Positions 32,735 to 47,667 of a DNA stretch of 64,000 nucleotides are shown here, one piece after another (the first letter of the stretch is position 1; each line of letters starts with the position of its first letter). A model generated the notes under the pieces. It was given only the letters and a program-made list of their open reading frames with translations. It had not been told where the DNA came from and did not search any database. The DNA is from an uncultured Bacteroidales bacterium (GTDB lineage Bacteria; Bacteroidota; Bacteroidia; Bacteroidales; Bacteroidaceae). A program made the translations under genes and the position numbers. The stretch is from assembly GCA_902788315.1 (NCBI GenBank), contig CADAJS010000005.1, positions 1 to 64,000 of the forward strand, given 5' to 3'.

Positions 32735-35074
32735 TCACCTTCCCAGTGCCTGGCGGCGCTGCATGGCTTCAAGATAATAATAGTCGGCATAGTTGAGCGG
32801 CACGTCCACCTCGCTGCCTGCCGGACGGTGGCCTACGCTATGCAGCAGAAGGAAACCGTGGTGAGTACCCTCCGGGGCACGATAGGCGCGATAGAGGCTC
32901 TCGGTGACCTTGTCGGCATAGGCCAGATAGCGGGCGGCATGCTCGTCGTCCACATAGCGACTAAGCTCGTAGAGCGCGGAGGCACAGATGGCCGAAGCCG
33001 AGGCGTCGCGTTCGGTCTGAGCCGTGTACTGGGGCAGTTTCATATCCCAATACGGAATCCCGTCCTCGGGAAGATGGGACCAGGAGAGCCATAGGTCGGC
33101 AATGTCAATGGCCTGTTTGAGGAAGCGCGCCTCGCGGGTGAAGCGGTAGCACATGGTAAATCCATAGAGCCCCCATGCCTGGCCGCGCGCCCAGAAGGAG
33201 TCGTCGGAATTGCCCTGCGCCGTGTTGCGCTTGCGCACTTGTCCCGTCTCTGGGTCGTAGTCGATAACGTGGAACGAACTATGGTCGGGACGGAAGTGGT
33301 TGCGCATTGTGGTCGTAGCATGGCTCAGGCAGATATTCCAGAAAGTGGAATCGCCCGTGAGTTGTGTGGCACGGAAGAGCATCTCGAGGTTCATCATGTT
33401 GTCAATGATGACGGGGAAGAGCCACTTGTCTCGATTGTGGTCCCAGGAGCGTATGCAGCCCACGGTGGGATTGAAGCGTGTGATGAGCGAACGAGCGCTC
33501 TGCAGCATGACGTCGCGCATGGATTCCTCGCCCGTTATCTCAAAGCCCTTGCCGAAGCTGTTGTTCATCATGAAGCCCAAGTCGTGAGTGCCGCGATTCC
33601 ACTTGGCATCCTCGATGAGCCACGTCTGGCTGACTGCCTCCTCGCGCCAGGCACGGTCATGGGTGTATTGGTACATCATCCACAGGCTCCCCGGCACAAA
33701 GCCCGAACACCAGTCGTTGGGATTCACCAGCGAGAGACGTCCCTCTTTGTCTTCGGTGCGGGCAATCACCTTCTGCCCGGCGCGGTTATCCTTGGCACGG
33801 CGTGCCTCGCGCGATTCCTTTGAAAGGAGCTCCAGCTGATGGGCTGCCGAGACATAAGCATGGTCGGTGAGGCTGGCGTCGTACCACAGGAGGTGGAAAC
33901 GGTTGCCCAGATCCAGATTACGGTGTTGGCGGTAAAGCGCCTCATAGGAGGAAGGCGCTGCATGCATGTAGTGTCCGTAGCGATAGAGCAGGCGTGCCAG
34001 GTCCTGCTGCTTCTCGCCCCATCCGTGGATTTGCTTATAGGGCCACTCCTCCACCGACTTGCCCATATAGGGAGACAGGAAATTAAGCGCCTGATAGAGA
34101 CTTCGTCCGTCGGTACTCACATAGTCTTCGAGATTGATGCCCACGCGGTGGGCCAGCATGCAGAGGTCGGCAAAGAAGTTTAGGTTGTAGATGCTGTAAT
34201 GGAACGAGAGAGTGCGTCGCAACTCCTGCGGCTGAGAGCCGTCGGGGGCTATCTGCGTGTCGATGCGTCGCTGCGGCACCTCTGAAATCACCTCGCGGGC
34301 TTTCTCCATATCACCCACATAGAGCGAAAAGGCAGCGAGCATCACGTCACAGCACACTCCGTGGTTGTTTCCTCCGGCACGTTCCATTCGTCCCTGCTCA
34401 CTCTCCTGCATCCATCGTAGCAGCCGGCTCACCCACGCACGCATCTCCTTACAGTCGCGGCGAGTGAGAGCTGAAGCCTGTCCGTGCTCCAAGAGCAGCA
34501 GAGCGTCCAGCATGCCCACAATCGAATAGGCATCCAGCACACCGTAGCTGCGACCGCGGTTGCCGTTGTGTCCCCTGGCCACCTGCGCATAATTCAGGTT
34601 CGGGTTCATGCGGGTGGCCTTGTCAAGGAAAAAGACACGCAAAAGCTCCACTGCACGCTGGGCATAGGCTTCGTTGCCGCTCAGGTACCATACCAGGGAG
34701 AGCGTCTCAATACGGTTGCAGGTGGTGCCCAGGGGGATGCGGTCATACCCGTTCAGCTCGGGGTTCGACTCGCCGTCGCGGTTCACATAGGGCAATCCGT
34801 CGGGCTTCGAGGGGTCGGGCCAGTAGTAACGGGCCAGGCTCATATAGTCGTGCTTGTCGCCGCTCTCAGGCACGGCCTGCTTGTCCATCACCGAGAGCGG
34901 ACGAGACTGAAGGCATGCGTCGGCCTGCTGTAGCAGATGAGCGAAGGCTGCTGCATAATATGGTTCGTGGATGGATTCCTTCACGCGGGCCAGGTGGGCA
35001 GAGTCCCACACATTCTGCCCCTGCATGGCAAGGGCGCAGACGGCAAGAAAAGTAATAAAAGCAATACGTCTCAT
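32735..35074 (-). CDS. Fusion of an alginate-lyase-type PL domain and a GH88 unsaturated glucuronyl hydrolase
   Basis: This 779-residue secreted protein (signal peptide 1-19, ending A-M-Q-G-Q) joins two enzymes. The N-terminal half (about 25-390) is an alginate_lyase-type alpha toroid with Y-W-P-D-P-S-K-P-D-G-L-P-Y and the catalytic-type N-N-H-G around residue 235. The C-terminal half (about 415-775) is GH88-like, with H-D-L-G-F (Asp near 497), I-I-D-N-M-M-N-L (Asp near 556) and F-W-A-R-G-Q-A-W-G. The two aspartates fit the Asp88/Asp149 pair of known unsaturated glucuronyl hydrolases. A lyase leaves an unsaturated uronate that GH88 removes, so both steps could occur in one chain. No SusC/SusD genes flank it. 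Confidence 0.8.
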   Translation of the reverse strand: MRRIAFITFLAVCALAMQGQNVWDSAHLARVKESIHEPYYAAAFAHLLQQADACLQSRPLSVMDKQAVPESGDKHDYMSLARYYWPDPSKPDGLPYVNRDGESNPELNGYDRIPLGTTCNRIETLSLVWYLSGNEAYAQRAVELLRVFFLDKATRMNPNLNYAQVARGHNGNRGRSYGVLDAYSIVGMLDALLLLEHGQASALTRRDCKEMRAWVSRLLRWMQESEQGRMERAGGNNHGVCCDVMLAAFSLYVGDMEKAREVISEVPQRRIDTQIAPDGSQPQELRRTLSFHYSIYNLNFFADLCMLAHRVGINLEDYVSTDGRSLYQALNFLSPYMGKSVEEWPYKQIHGWGEKQQDLARLLYRYGHYMHAAPSSYEALYRQHRNLDLGNRFHLLWYDASLTDHAYVSAAHQLELLSKESREARRAKDNRAGQKVIARTEDKEGRLSLVNPNDWCSGFVPGSLWMMYQYTHDRAWREEAVSQTWLIEDAKWNRGTHDLGFMMNNSFGKGFEITGEESMRDVMLQSARSLITRFNPTVGCIRSWDHNRDKWLFPVIIDNMMNLEMLFRATQLTGDSTFWNICLSHATTTMRNHFRPDHSSFHVIDYDPETGQVRKRNTAQGNSDDSFWARGQAWGLYGFTMCYRFTREARFLKQAIDIADLWLSWSHLPEDGIPYWDMKLPQYTAQTERDASASAICASALYELSRYVDDEHAARYLAYADKVTESLYRAYRAPEGTHHGFLLLHSVGHRPAGSEVDVPLNYADYYYLEAMQRRQALGR

Positions 35075-42906: not shown

Positions 42907-44037
42907 ATGTACGCCTCGGCCCGTATGTCCAACCTTTGCATGCTGTCAGTTGCCCTTGTGCTGCTGGCAGCATGCAATCATTCCAGCCCCGGACTATCCG
43001 AGGAGGATTTCTCACACCAGGGGCGGGGCGTCTTCATTCTGTGTGAAGGAAACTTTCAGGCCGGAAACAGCACGCTCTCGTATTACGACCCTTCCACACG
43101 CAAAGTTGAGAACGGCGTGTTCCAACGTGCCAACGACCGGAAGCTGGGCGACACGGGGCAGTCCATCACCATCGATCGTGGCACAGCATACATCGCCGTG
43201 GAAAACAGTGGCATCATCTGGGCCATCGACACCGAAACATTCCGCGTCAAGGGACAACTGACTGCAGGGCAGACGGAGCAACACATGATAAACCCACGCT
43301 ACGTGTACGTATCGAATGCCGAGAAGGCTTATGCAACCGATCTCTACGCCCCCTATATCACCATCTTCAACCCTACGACACTTGCTTATCGGGGCTACAT
43401 CTCCACGGCTCAGCCGCAAGCGTATGGATATTCCAACACAGAGCGTATCGTGCCCTACGGACAGACGCTCTTTGTCAATTGCTGGTGTTACAGCCGAAGC
43501 ATCCTGGTCATCGACACACAGCAGGAGGCAGTGACAGACAGCATCGTCCTGAGCAGCTGGCAACCCAAGGCAATGCTTTTGGACTGCCACAACAAGCTTT
43601 GGGTACTCACAGACGGCGGATACGGAACCGACGGCAGCACGTCATCCTTTAGTGACAACGTACCTCACCTCTATCGAATCGATGCTGCCACACGCCGCAT
43701 TGAATCAGACGAGCCACTGGACACGGACGAAGCCAGTGTGGAAATGGCCCTCAATCCACGGGGTGACACTCTCTACATTATCAACAACGACCTCTATCGC
43801 ATGGCTGTCACAGACGCACATCTCTCCGTGCGACCCTTCATCAAGGCACCCAAAGACAGCCAGGGACGACGCCACAAGCTTTATGGGCTTAACGTGAATC
43901 CCTATGACGGCGACATCTATCTGGCCGATGCCGTGGATTACAGCCAGGCAGGTGTGGTTTACCGATACTCGCGCGAAGGACAGCTCGTGGACCACTTCCG
44001 CGTGGGCATCAACCCCAGTTGCTTTGCCTTCAAGTAA
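42907..44037 (+). CDS. Surface lipoprotein beta-propeller (DUF5074/YncE-like, BtuG-type candidate)
   Basis: This 376-residue lipoprotein (lipobox L-A-A-C) consists of YncE/NHL-like repeats: G-V-F-I-L-C-E-G-N-F-Q-A-G-N-S-T-L, Y-D-P-S-T-R-K, I-D-T-Q-Q-E-A-V, and similar repeats down to N-P-Y-D-G-D-I-Y-L-A-D-A. In Bacteroides, such a DUF5074-type propeller encoded next to a BtuB receptor (BtuG) binds cobalamin tightly at the surface; the position here fits, but binding is inferred. The start at 42907 gives a signal peptide with an Arg; an ATG at 42925 would leave it uncharged. Confidence 0.72.
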   Translation: MYASARMSNLCMLSVALVLLAACNHSSPGLSEEDFSHQGRGVFILCEGNFQAGNSTLSYYDPSTRKVENGVFQRANDRKLGDTGQSITIDRGTAYIAVENSGIIWAIDTETFRVKGQLTAGQTEQHMINPRYVYVSNAEKAYATDLYAPYITIFNPTTLAYRGYISTAQPQAYGYSNTERIVPYGQTLFVNCWCYSRSILVIDTQQEAVTDSIVLSSWQPKAMLLDCHNKLWVLTDGGYGTDGSTSSFSDNVPHLYRIDAATRRIESDEPLDTDEASVEMALNPRGDTLYIINNDLYRMAVTDAHLSVRPFIKAPKDSQGRRHKLYGLNVNPYDGDIYLADAVDYSQAGVVYRYSREGQLVDHFRVGINPSCFAFK

Positions 44038-44071
44038 AAGCCCCTCTCCCCCTCTTCGGATTACAACCATC

Positions 44072-45607
44072 ATGAGTATGCATACACCTGAAATACGACT
44101 TTCCAGCCCTACCCGTTCTCTATGGAGGAAAATGGGGACTGGCGTCCTTCTCCTTCTTTTTTTCTCGCTCCTTTCATGCAGCGACGACAGCCCAAGCGGG
44201 CCACTGCCCGTTATCAGCTGGGCCATGTCGGGCGCACGATTCCGAGTATATACCGACGAGGTGCTGAGCCTGGTGCCCGATGTGGAGCACACTGACGAAA
44301 CCACCACCTATCTGTGGACAATGGACGGGAAGACCGTAGGCACCGACGATCACTTCGAATTCAGCAGCCCGACGGCAGGCGAATACTATGTGAAGTTCCG
44401 GGTGACAAACCGTTTCGGGCAGACAGACGATGAGGTGAAAATCACGGTGGTGCAGGCAGAGAAGAACACCATTCCCGAGCCGCCCAGCGACAGCACGCTA
44501 CGCTGCCTCTTTCCCTTCAGCGAGATCAACATCCCCATCGGGAGAGACATTGAGATACGACCCCACATCCTGGAGAATACCGAGGGATATAGCTGGCAGT
44601 GGCAGGTTAATGGAGTTGATGTAGATGGCTCGGGACAGACCGTGACGGGCAGCCCACGACTCATATTCCGAGCCACGGAACAGGGAACGACGAATGTCTG
44701 CCTCCTATTACGTAACGATACATCCGAGGTCAGACGAGAAGTCATCGTTCATCAATGTCCTCCTGCCGGAACATATCGACGCACCACTCCGAGCACACGG
44801 AGGATGGTAGATAAAGTCTTTGAATATCAGCCAGCACCAGGCCATCAAGTGAATGGTTACATCATTACGGGAAGAAGCTTCCCCGATGGCTGCACGCACG
44901 AACAAGCCTGCGATACCGTGCTCAGTCATTTCGAGCGCCAGTGGATGACAAGCCTGGGCGGATGGGGTGGCTATCTGGTGGCAGGCTTCGACCACAGCGT
45001 ACCGCGCAACGACACAAAGCCAGACCTCTGTATCAAGGGTAATCCGTACGACTACCAATCGGAACCTGGCATCATCTGGGTGAGCCAGGACGTGAATGGC
45101 GACGGATTACCCAACGACCTATGGTACGAACTGGCCGGCTCGGAATATGGCACCCGCAATCACACGACAGGCTATGCCATGACATACTATCGTCCGCAGC
45201 ATCCTCACATGGGAGTAGCATGGAAAGGAAGCGGCGGCGAGTCGGACTATATTCCGTACATGAGCTACTGGAATCCAGCCGATTATTATTGGCAGGACTG
45301 GCAGCGGGACAAGGAGACGCTGACATTCTTCGGCAGCATGCTTGAGAGTAACGTATCGTATAGCAACGGCGTTTCGTCGCTTCCGCCATACGCCTGGGGA
45401 TACGCCGACAATCTGGGCGAAGACTACATCGAGGGGACACGTGGCCGTATGGGATATTACAGTATAAGGCACGCGCGCACGTGGGACGGCCAGCCTGCCG
45501 AACTGGAATACATTGATTTCGTCAAGGTGCAGACAGCCATTACAGGCCATACGCCCAACCTGGGCGATGCGAGCACCGAGGTGTATGGCATCATGAGTAA
45601 CGAATAA
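44072..45607 (+). CDS. Surface lipoprotein with PKD/Ig-like domains
   Basis: This 511-residue lipoprotein (lipobox L-L-S-C; S-D-D-S after it) has two PKD-like beta domains (about residues 50-140 and 150-245, with T-Y-L-W-T-M-D-G-K and Y-S-W-Q-W-Q-V-N-G). A larger C-terminal domain (about 265-511) contains D-V-N-G-D-G-L-P-N-D-L-W-Y-E-L-A-G-S. Proteins of this type occupy the same position in cobamide loci of Bacteroidetes and may help bind the ligand at the surface. The start at 44072 lies 34 nt after the propeller stop; the frame extends 168 nt further upstream inside the previous gene, but those residues look like a shadow. Confidence 0.68.
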   Translation: MSMHTPEIRLSSPTRSLWRKMGTGVLLLLFFSLLSCSDDSPSGPLPVISWAMSGARFRVYTDEVLSLVPDVEHTDETTTYLWTMDGKTVGTDDHFEFSSPTAGEYYVKFRVTNRFGQTDDEVKITVVQAEKNTIPEPPSDSTLRCLFPFSEINIPIGRDIEIRPHILENTEGYSWQWQVNGVDVDGSGQTVTGSPRLIFRATEQGTTNVCLLLRNDTSEVRREVIVHQCPPAGTYRRTTPSTRRMVDKVFEYQPAPGHQVNGYIITGRSFPDGCTHEQACDTVLSHFERQWMTSLGGWGGYLVAGFDHSVPRNDTKPDLCIKGNPYDYQSEPGIIWVSQDVNGDGLPNDLWYELAGSEYGTRNHTTGYAMTYYRPQHPHMGVAWKGSGGESDYIPYMSYWNPADYYWQDWQRDKETLTFFGSMLESNVSYSNGVSSLPPYAWGYADNLGEDYIEGTRGRMGYYSIRHARTWDGQPAELEYIDFVKVQTAITGHTPNLGDASTEVYGIMSNE

Positions 45608-45609
45608 GG

Positions 45610-47667
45610 ATGAGGATCTGTGCCCGAAGTCTGCTCTGCCTCCTCGCAGCCCCTGCATTTCTGCATGCACGCGAGGCGGACGATGAGGCCATTCCGGAAC
45701 GCCGCGACACCCTGCGCACCGTGCAGGTTACGGCCACGCGCCGCTTGCGCGACACCGGACTGCAGATGACCCGGCTGGACACACTGGCGCTGCGCGAGAA
45801 TATCTCACTCTCCGTGGCCGACGTACTCACACAGCACAGCACACTCTTCATCAAGAGCTACGGACGTGCCACCGAGTCAACAGCCGAGTTCCGCGGCACA
45901 TCGCCCAGCCACACACAGGTGCTCTGGAACGGCATGCGCTTCAATTCTCCCATGCTGGGCACGATGGACTTCAGCCTTATCCCATCCTATTTTGTGGACG
46001 ATGCCACGCTCTACCATGGCGCATCCAGCCTGGCCGTGACGGATGGAGGCCTGGGCGGTGCCATAGAATTGCGCACACGCTCCTCGGCACAGGAAGGTCT
46101 TCGGGGGCAGTATGTACAAGGCATCGGATCCTACGAGACCTTCGACCAGTTTCTGCGTCTCTCCTATCAGAGCGGCAGGCACTGGAGCGCCAACACCCGA
46201 CTCTCGTATGGCACCAGCGAGAACGATTTCAGGTACACAAACTACGACAAGAAGGTGGACGAGCGCGACGCACAGGCTGGCATCGTCCGGAGCTATCACC
46301 CACGGGAACGTAACAGGAGCGGCTACTTCGACGACATAAATCTGATGCAGGACGTGGCATACAACGACCTGCACGGCAATCGTTGGGGGGCCACCGTATG
46401 GTGTACGACCTCGAAGCGCGGACTACCCTTCCTCAGTGTGGACTACAAGGACGACAGTGATTTCAAGAACGAACAGACGCTCACTGCCGTGCGGAGCGTT
46501 GCCACCTACGACCACACGGCCTCTCAGTGGAACATCGGCTTCAAGGCGGGCTATGCACATCAGAACCTGGGTTATGACTATCATACGACCAGAGCCGATG
46601 TGCAGACAGACATCACCCGCAGCCGCAGCTATGTGAACACCGTTTTTCTGCAAGCCACAGCCGACCTGCTCCCTGCCCCCGGCTGGATGCTGACGGCCAG
46701 CGCTGCTACCTATTACAATCACGTGCGCAGCTGGGACCGCAGTCCCTTCCACATCGGGGACAATTTCGACACCGGACGCTGGGAGGGCCATGCCACGGCA
46801 CAGTTGCGGTGGCGTCCGCGAGAGCGGTTCACGATGGCGGCCGTACTGCGCGAAGATATTTACCGTACCGACATGCAAGTGCCCATACCTGCATTGATGG
46901 CCGACTATCTCCTTGTCCGTCCCTGGCAACTTACCCTCAAGGCATCTGTCGCACGCAACCAACGCTATCCCTCGATGGACGACCTTTATTACAAGCCGGG
47001 TGGCAACCCTGACCTGAAGGCAGAGAAGGGCTTCACCTACGATGCAGGGCTTTCCTGGCACAGGCAAGTGGGAGGCTATGAGGTAGGCGGCAGCGTTACT
47101 GGATTCGACTCGTACATCAGCGACTGGATTCAGTGGACACCGAACACAAAAGGCTTCTGGGTACCCGAGAATGTGAAACGCGTGCATGCCTATGGAGTGG
47201 AGTCTTCGCTGAACGCCTCCACACCAGAGGTGCGTGGATGGAAGGCACAACTCACTGCCAACTATGCTTTCACGCCCAGCATTAACCGAGGTCGGCGTGT
47301 GAACAGCGACGATGCCTCCTACGGCAAACAGCTGTGTTATGTGCCGCGCCATTCGACCAATTTCACAGTCCGACTGACATGGCGACAATGGGAACTGACC
47401 TACCATTGGATTCACTATAGCGAACGCTTCACCACCACAAGCAACGAGACTCGCTACATCACGGGCCGGCTACTCCCCTATTACATGAACAATGTGGCCG
47501 TAGGACGACGGTTTCAGTGGCGCAATGTGCATGCCAGCCTGCGCCTGGCGGTGAACAATCTGTTCGACAACGAATACGTCACCGTACTGTCACGCCCGAT
47601 GCCGCCACGCAATTATGCCCTTTACCTCGAAATATCTCCCTTATGGAAAAAACACGCAAAGCACTGA
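45610..47667 (+). CDS. TonB-dependent receptor, BtuB-like
   Basis: This 685-residue outer-membrane receptor has a signal peptide (about 1-20), TonB-box-like T-V-Q-V-T-A-T, a plug (about 45-155, with T-A-E-F-R-G-T-S and H-G-A-S-S-L-A-V-T-D-G-G-L-G-G-A) and a barrel ending Y-A-L-Y-L-E-I-S-P-L-W. There is no CarboxypepD_reg domain. It is size-matched to BtuB-type receptors and sits between the PKD lipoprotein and a substrate-binding protein, so cobamide transport is the best guess; iron-siderophore transport is the main alternative. It starts 2 nt after the previous stop and overlaps the next gene by 25 nt. Confidence 0.8.
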   Translation: MRICARSLLCLLAAPAFLHAREADDEAIPERRDTLRTVQVTATRRLRDTGLQMTRLDTLALRENISLSVADVLTQHSTLFIKSYGRATESTAEFRGTSPSHTQVLWNGMRFNSPMLGTMDFSLIPSYFVDDATLYHGASSLAVTDGGLGGAIELRTRSSAQEGLRGQYVQGIGSYETFDQFLRLSYQSGRHWSANTRLSYGTSENDFRYTNYDKKVDERDAQAGIVRSYHPRERNRSGYFDDINLMQDVAYNDLHGNRWGATVWCTTSKRGLPFLSVDYKDDSDFKNEQTLTAVRSVATYDHTASQWNIGFKAGYAHQNLGYDYHTTRADVQTDITRSRSYVNTVFLQATADLLPAPGWMLTASAATYYNHVRSWDRSPFHIGDNFDTGRWEGHATAQLRWRPRERFTMAAVLREDIYRTDMQVPIPALMADYLLVRPWQLTLKASVARNQRYPSMDDLYYKPGGNPDLKAEKGFTYDAGLSWHRQVGGYEVGGSVTGFDSYISDWIQWTPNTKGFWVPENVKRVHAYGVESSLNASTPEVRGWKAQLTANYAFTPSINRGRRVNSDDASYGKQLCYVPRHSTNFTVRLTWRQWELTYHWIHYSERFTTTSNETRYITGRLLPYYMNNVAVGRRFQWRNVHASLRLAVNNLFDNEYVTVLSRPMPPRNYALYLEISPLWKKHAKH

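Follow-up and report, generated by a model that had tools for sequence, protein, structure and literature searches.

A PL38-type lyase fused to a GH88 hydrolase in Bacteroidales, a candidate bifunctional enzyme for glucuronate glycans

Lyases of family PL38 leave a delta-4,5-unsaturated uronate on the chain that they cut, and GH88 hydrolases remove such residues, a coupling established for both families. A lyase and an unsaturated-uronate hydrolase thus form a standard pair, which is usually made up of two proteins. In the DNA analysed here (a stretch of 64,000 nucleotides, called the window, from an uncultured rumen-type Bacteroidales bacterium) both appear to be encoded by one gene. This raises the question of whether the fusion is genuine, whether both of its halves are likely to work, and on which glycan. 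An earlier note on this DNA had pointed out that the product of the lyase would be the substrate of the hydrolase, which is biochemically sound for these two families.

Two domains in one exported protein

The fusion gene (32735-35074, minus strand, as are all of its features below) is a single unbroken open reading frame of 779 codons with an ATG start. Pfam and PDB searches gave PL38-type and GH88 matches to the two halves, while no NCBIfam family matched the protein. Approximately the first 20 residues (35015-35074) were read by eye as a signal peptide (MRRIAFITFLAVCALAMQGQ) lacking a lipobox; the N-termini of homologues are similar, and AlphaFold gave low pLDDT to residues 13-18 of this region. 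Judged from such a signal peptide, the protein is probably periplasmic rather than secreted outright, as the earlier note had it.

The lyase domain comprises residues 21-400 (33875-35014). Pfam Alginate_lyase matched residues 61-344 (E 6.6e-78), and the best PDB sequence match was 3nfv (E 3.4e-106, residues 21-397). In a Foldseek search with the AlphaFold model, 3nfv and 3nnb, both structures of B. ovatus BACOVA_01668, were the closest solved lyase domains (TMt 0.97, rmsd 1.2 for 3nnb, 44% identity). The alginate lyase BoPL38 of Bacteroides ovatus CP926 (8bdq and the 9fh/9fi series) was homologous both in sequence (8bdq, E 1e-55, residues 51-367) and in fold (TMt up to 0.90, 30% identity), and the lyase half indeed adopts the (alpha/alpha) barrel of PL38 in the model. 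BACOVA_01668 and BoPL38 are, however, single-domain proteins, the latter encoded in an alginate PUL, whereas the window protein continues into GH88.

The residues reported to abstract H5 in BoPL38 are Tyr298 and His243 (PMC13169297). His243 aligned with His238 of the N236-N237-H238 stretch (34361-34369), which lies in an N-N-H-G motif at residues 236-239, and Tyr298 aligned with Tyr293 (34196-34198). We further mapped Y91, D108, Q173, N242 and H297 of BoPL38, positions at which mutants are listed in the PDB. Together with the catalytic pair, all seven mapped positions (Y91, D108, Q173, N242, H243, H297 and Y298) were identical in the window protein, where they are Y83, D100, Q164, N237, H238, H292 and Y293.

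The GH88 unsaturated glucuronyl hydrolase domain comprises residues 438-779 (32738-33763). The Pfam match to Glyco_hydro_88 (residues 442-737, E 1.4e-7) exceeded the curated cut-off, and the best PDB match was 3wiw, a heparin-specific unsaturated glucuronyl hydrolase (E 5.6e-86, residues 438-774), which was also the closest solved GH88 by fold (TMt 0.92, 39% identity); unlike the window domain, the 3wiw enzyme stands alone, with no lyase attached. The Bacillus hydrolase UGL (1vd5) was matched as well (TMt 0.87). Asp498 in the motif THDLGF (33581-33583) corresponded in the alignment to the Asp of the 1vd5 motif HDIGF, a residue that is Asn in the 2ahf and 2fv0 (D88N) chains, and the second catalytic-type aspartate, Asp558 in IIDNMMN (33401-33403), also aligned with the corresponding 1vd5 motif.

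Between the two domains lies a helical segment, residues 401-437 (33764-33874), whose sequence varies among homologues; the model places helices at 402-425 and 428-432 with a block-mean pLDDT above 90. Overall, AlphaFold, run on a 36-sequence alignment, predicted two confident barrels (mean pLDDT 92.3), and the high pTM of 0.90 suggests that they are held in a fixed arrangement. The alignments thus bear out the earlier note in its view that the N-N-H-G motif and both GH88 aspartates are intact.

A recurrent fusion

The only point in favour of an artefact of assembly or gene calling, by which two adjacent genes were merged, is that the DNA comes from a draft genome in 58 contigs. A scan of GTDB species genomes gave 79 loci, about 54 of them with an essentially full-length match of 46-74% identity and the architecture of the window protein, in Bacteroides, Prevotella, Alistipes, Palleniella, Muribaculaceae, Tannerella and others. 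Domain order and linker region are the same throughout these approximately 54 records, among which are isolate genomes of Bacteroides fluxus, B. cutis, B. muris and Palleniella intestinalis. Since dozens of independently assembled genomes carry the fusion, chance and mis-assembly are excluded, and we give an artefact practically no credence. (A mechanical count gave 59 fusion reading frames, duplicates included, and the simple ORF caller masked some others behind longer antisense frames, as in locus L042.) When 392 genomes were drawn evenly from the order, on the other hand, only four, the source genome among them, had a full-length match at E <= 1e-150. The fusion is thus widespread but patchy, and the initial impression that it is not a common architecture holds for its scatter across the order but not for its recurrence. 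We found no description of a PL38-GH88 protein in the literature, which is weak evidence because most subscription papers lay outside the search. The pairing is apparently an undescribed but conserved architecture of two known enzyme families.

In a quick FastTree tree of GH88 sequences, all fusions of this order of domains grouped in a single clade (support 1.0) that also encloses four single-domain members, which indicates one old fusion event. The PL tree, built in the same way, was consistent with this, but its basal fusion node was weak (0.29), so that a single origin is well supported on the GH88 side only. A fusion in the reversed order, GH88 followed by PL38, is found in genome G078 (L034:7923-10298), from another family of the order, and is of independent origin. 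In one candidate, G074, the open-frame length suggested a fusion, but it was rejected because lyase and GH88 occupy two distinct reading frames there (412 and 393 aa); a plasmid-borne copy was also rejected, because plasmids gave no match.

Are both halves kept for their activity? Of 51 fusion proteins, that of the window among them, 50 keep the catalytic His and Tyr of the lyase and all 51 the equivalents of Asp498 and Asp558, which argues that selection acts on both halves. The sole exception, from Bacteroides ndongoniae (L086), has lost the lyase catalytic residues and kept the GH88 aspartates. Furthermore, at the orthologous locus of a genus-mate (L038:6640-7861) the entire PL half is gone; a signal-peptide-like start is joined to GH88 and the GH88 part is frameshifted, which points to decay of the gene or to a fault in the assembly. 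The gene appears to be disappearing from that genus-mate and may therefore be dispensable in this lineage. These two cases would fit a protein in which the GH88 half alone works, the PL38 half being a glycan-binding or structural module, or decaying; the Alginate_lyase module of RiPL8, for which no function could be detected (PMC13027841), offers a precedent. We nevertheless consider this quite unlikely for the window protein, given that all of its mapped BoPL38 active-site residues are present, that all but one of the homologues keep the catalytic pair, and that the lyase fold was predicted with confidence and is so close to that of 3nnb.

Other arrangements of these domains were seen in the same group of bacteria. 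Two genus-mates encode single-domain PL38-like proteins of 364-372 aa among glycosyltransferase-like genes (L133:3723-4817 and L136:4019-5137), possibly linked to surface polysaccharide synthesis, and in genus-mate G006 a protein of 1006 aa (L134:4-3024) begins like a lipoprotein and combines a PL38-type domain with heparinase II/III domains. The source genome has a second GH88 on its contig C8 (L002:334-2991), fused to DUF2264 (PF10022) in a protein of 885 aa; the adjoining gene has a core of glycosyl-hydrolase type and matches CBM6. Several genus-mates have reading frames of similar size (780-846 aa) that match GH88; domain content was checked in the source genome only.

Genomic surroundings

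On either side of the fusion, the window has genes for a two-component system, a Na/Pi cotransporter, a thioredoxin-type protein and a flavoprotein-like product, as well as TldD/PmbA genes. Genus-mates (L032, L078, L038/L097 and, apparently, L042) share the succession of fusion, thioredoxin-type and flavoprotein-like genes, and in several of these loci TldD/PmbA genes come next. Among the larger window genes scanned, no SusC/SusD pair or other glycan enzyme stands beside the fusion, and the TonB receptors found lie several kb away and lack a SusD match. A run of DUF5074, PKD-domain and TonB-dependent receptor genes occupies 42907-47667 of the window.

Relatives differ. SusC, SusD or a GH2 gene neighbours the fusion at 48 of 55 loci, the individual counts being GH2 41, SusC 27, SusD 21, GH3 19, SDR 10, GH5 10, UxuA 8 and GH30 8 (SusC and SusD were labelled by reading the sequence, with a scan for the L086 SusD only). 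That the protein would work without a SusCD locus, as first proposed, is therefore true of the window and its near relatives but not of the family; the missing locus is a trait of this lineage's copy, which is a solitary branch outside any such cluster. Its occurrence in dozens of gut relatives, mostly within sugar-uptake clusters, makes the fusion real and sensible, though not unique.

In B. fluxus a GH2 gene stands on either side of the fusion, and both are nearly identical to solved GH2 enzymes of the Bacteroides type: the adjacent upstream one matched 6d50 and 5uj6 over its full length (1769 and 1727 bits), and the downstream one matched 6d1p (1544 bits). We take 5uj6, 6d50 and 6d1p to be B. 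uniformis beta-glucuronidases, although the PDB names them no more precisely than GH2 family protein or beta-galactosidase, and we assume that 5uj6 is the loop-2 enzyme of that species. The B. uniformis loop-2 enzyme cleaved 90% of an unsulfated heparan 9-mer and 8% of a sulfated one (PMC6712278). A close copy of the GH2 partner of the fusion is absent from the source genome (best 31%).

Genes for the use of uronates were found as well. In genus-mate G033 (L032) the fusion is closely followed downstream by a UxaC-UxuA-SDR-ExuT group. The source genome has this group elsewhere, on contig C1, where ExuT- and SDR-like genes adjoin UxuA; Eda is also on C1 and KduI is on C4, where we read the adjoining SDR as KduD.

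Proposed reaction and substrate

We propose, with a probability of about 0.7, that the protein is a bifunctional, exported and most likely periplasmic PL38 and GH88 enzyme, whose likely substrate is a glycan that contains glucuronate and is unsulfated, or oligosaccharides of it, and not necessarily alginate. The PL38 half would cleave the chain at a 4-linked uronic acid by beta-elimination, His238 and Tyr293 being the acid/base pair. The new non-reducing end would then carry a delta-4,5-unsaturated uronate, which the GH88 half would hydrate and remove by means of Asp498 and Asp558. The freed unsaturated uronate could then enter the KduI/KduD/Eda route, and any saturated glucuronate the ExuT-SDR-UxuA-UxaC route, both encoded elsewhere in the genome. 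What the analysis shows is an intact gene, the identity of its two domains, the conservation of their catalytic residues, the predicted fold, and the recurrence and surroundings of the fusion, whereas the two activities, the compartment, the substrate and any benefit of channelling are inferred. A like two-step logic, in which an unsaturated uronate is made and then removed, is known from Akkermansia muciniphila Amuc_0778 (PL38) and Amuc_0863 (PMC11790493), which are, however, two separate proteins, the second of them a GH105 instead of a GH88.

The substrates reported for PL38 include alginate, beta-1,4-glucuronan, hyaluronan and also chondroitin sulfate (PMC13027841), which makes alginate one candidate among several. 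PL38-type is therefore a better label than alginate-lyase-type, the term used at the outset. A true alginate degrader, in which PL38 cuts alginate and GH88 takes the unsaturated uronate off its oligomers, seems very unlikely to us. BoPL38 and Aly38A are alginate lyases, and the window protein keeps, as His292, the BoPL38 His297 that is Gly in most fusion homologues and in BACOVA_01668. However, the fusion gene is the sole PF05426 gene of its genome, and the neighbours across the family are beta-glucuronidase-group GH2, GH3 and UxuA genes, not other alginate-lyase genes. Moreover, 3nfv, the closest PL structure, was named an alginate lyase by its depositors, and we found no paper with an assay of BACOVA_01668 in the literature searched.

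The protein might instead scavenge glycosaminoglycans, namely hyaluronan or chondroitin sulfate. RiPL38 degrades both (PMC13027841), and Amuc_0778 with the GH105 acts on glycosaminoglycans other than heparan sulfate (PMC11790493). The B. ndongoniae locus (L086:6373-15171) has its dead-lyase fusion, with a GH88 half that looks intact, between two sulfatases and adjoining a heparinase II/III and a GH30-type gene. Yet a sulfatase motif, sought with a simple pattern that can miss some, was near only 3 of the 55 fusion loci, and by PDB search and Foldseek the GH88 half is nearer to the heparin-specific 3wiw than to the chondroitin-type Streptococcus enzymes, so we regard this alternative as unlikely.

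The neighbours in other species and the heparin-type GH88 favour, with modest confidence, an unsulfated, 4-linked glucuronate glycan over alginate specifically as the substrate of the proposed bifunctional enzyme. A glucuronate-bearing beta-glucan would fit too, as GH3, GH5 and GH30 genes are neighbours in some species. Only tentatively, we can picture the fusion as a one-protein machine for an unsulfated glucuronate glycan, whose two barrels, rigidly joined, would transfer the unsaturated end of the chain between their sites, and which in the genus of the window would have left its PUL to become a stand-alone scavenger of oligosaccharides.

The substrate specificity of PL38 is still being worked out, and a fusion conserved in many gut Bacteroidales marks out a candidate glucuronate-glycan enzyme that is well defined and testable. 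Because in B. fluxus it lies beside near-identical relatives of solved gut GH2 enzymes of the beta-glucuronidase group, the identity of its substrate could help to explain the natural role of those glucuronidases.
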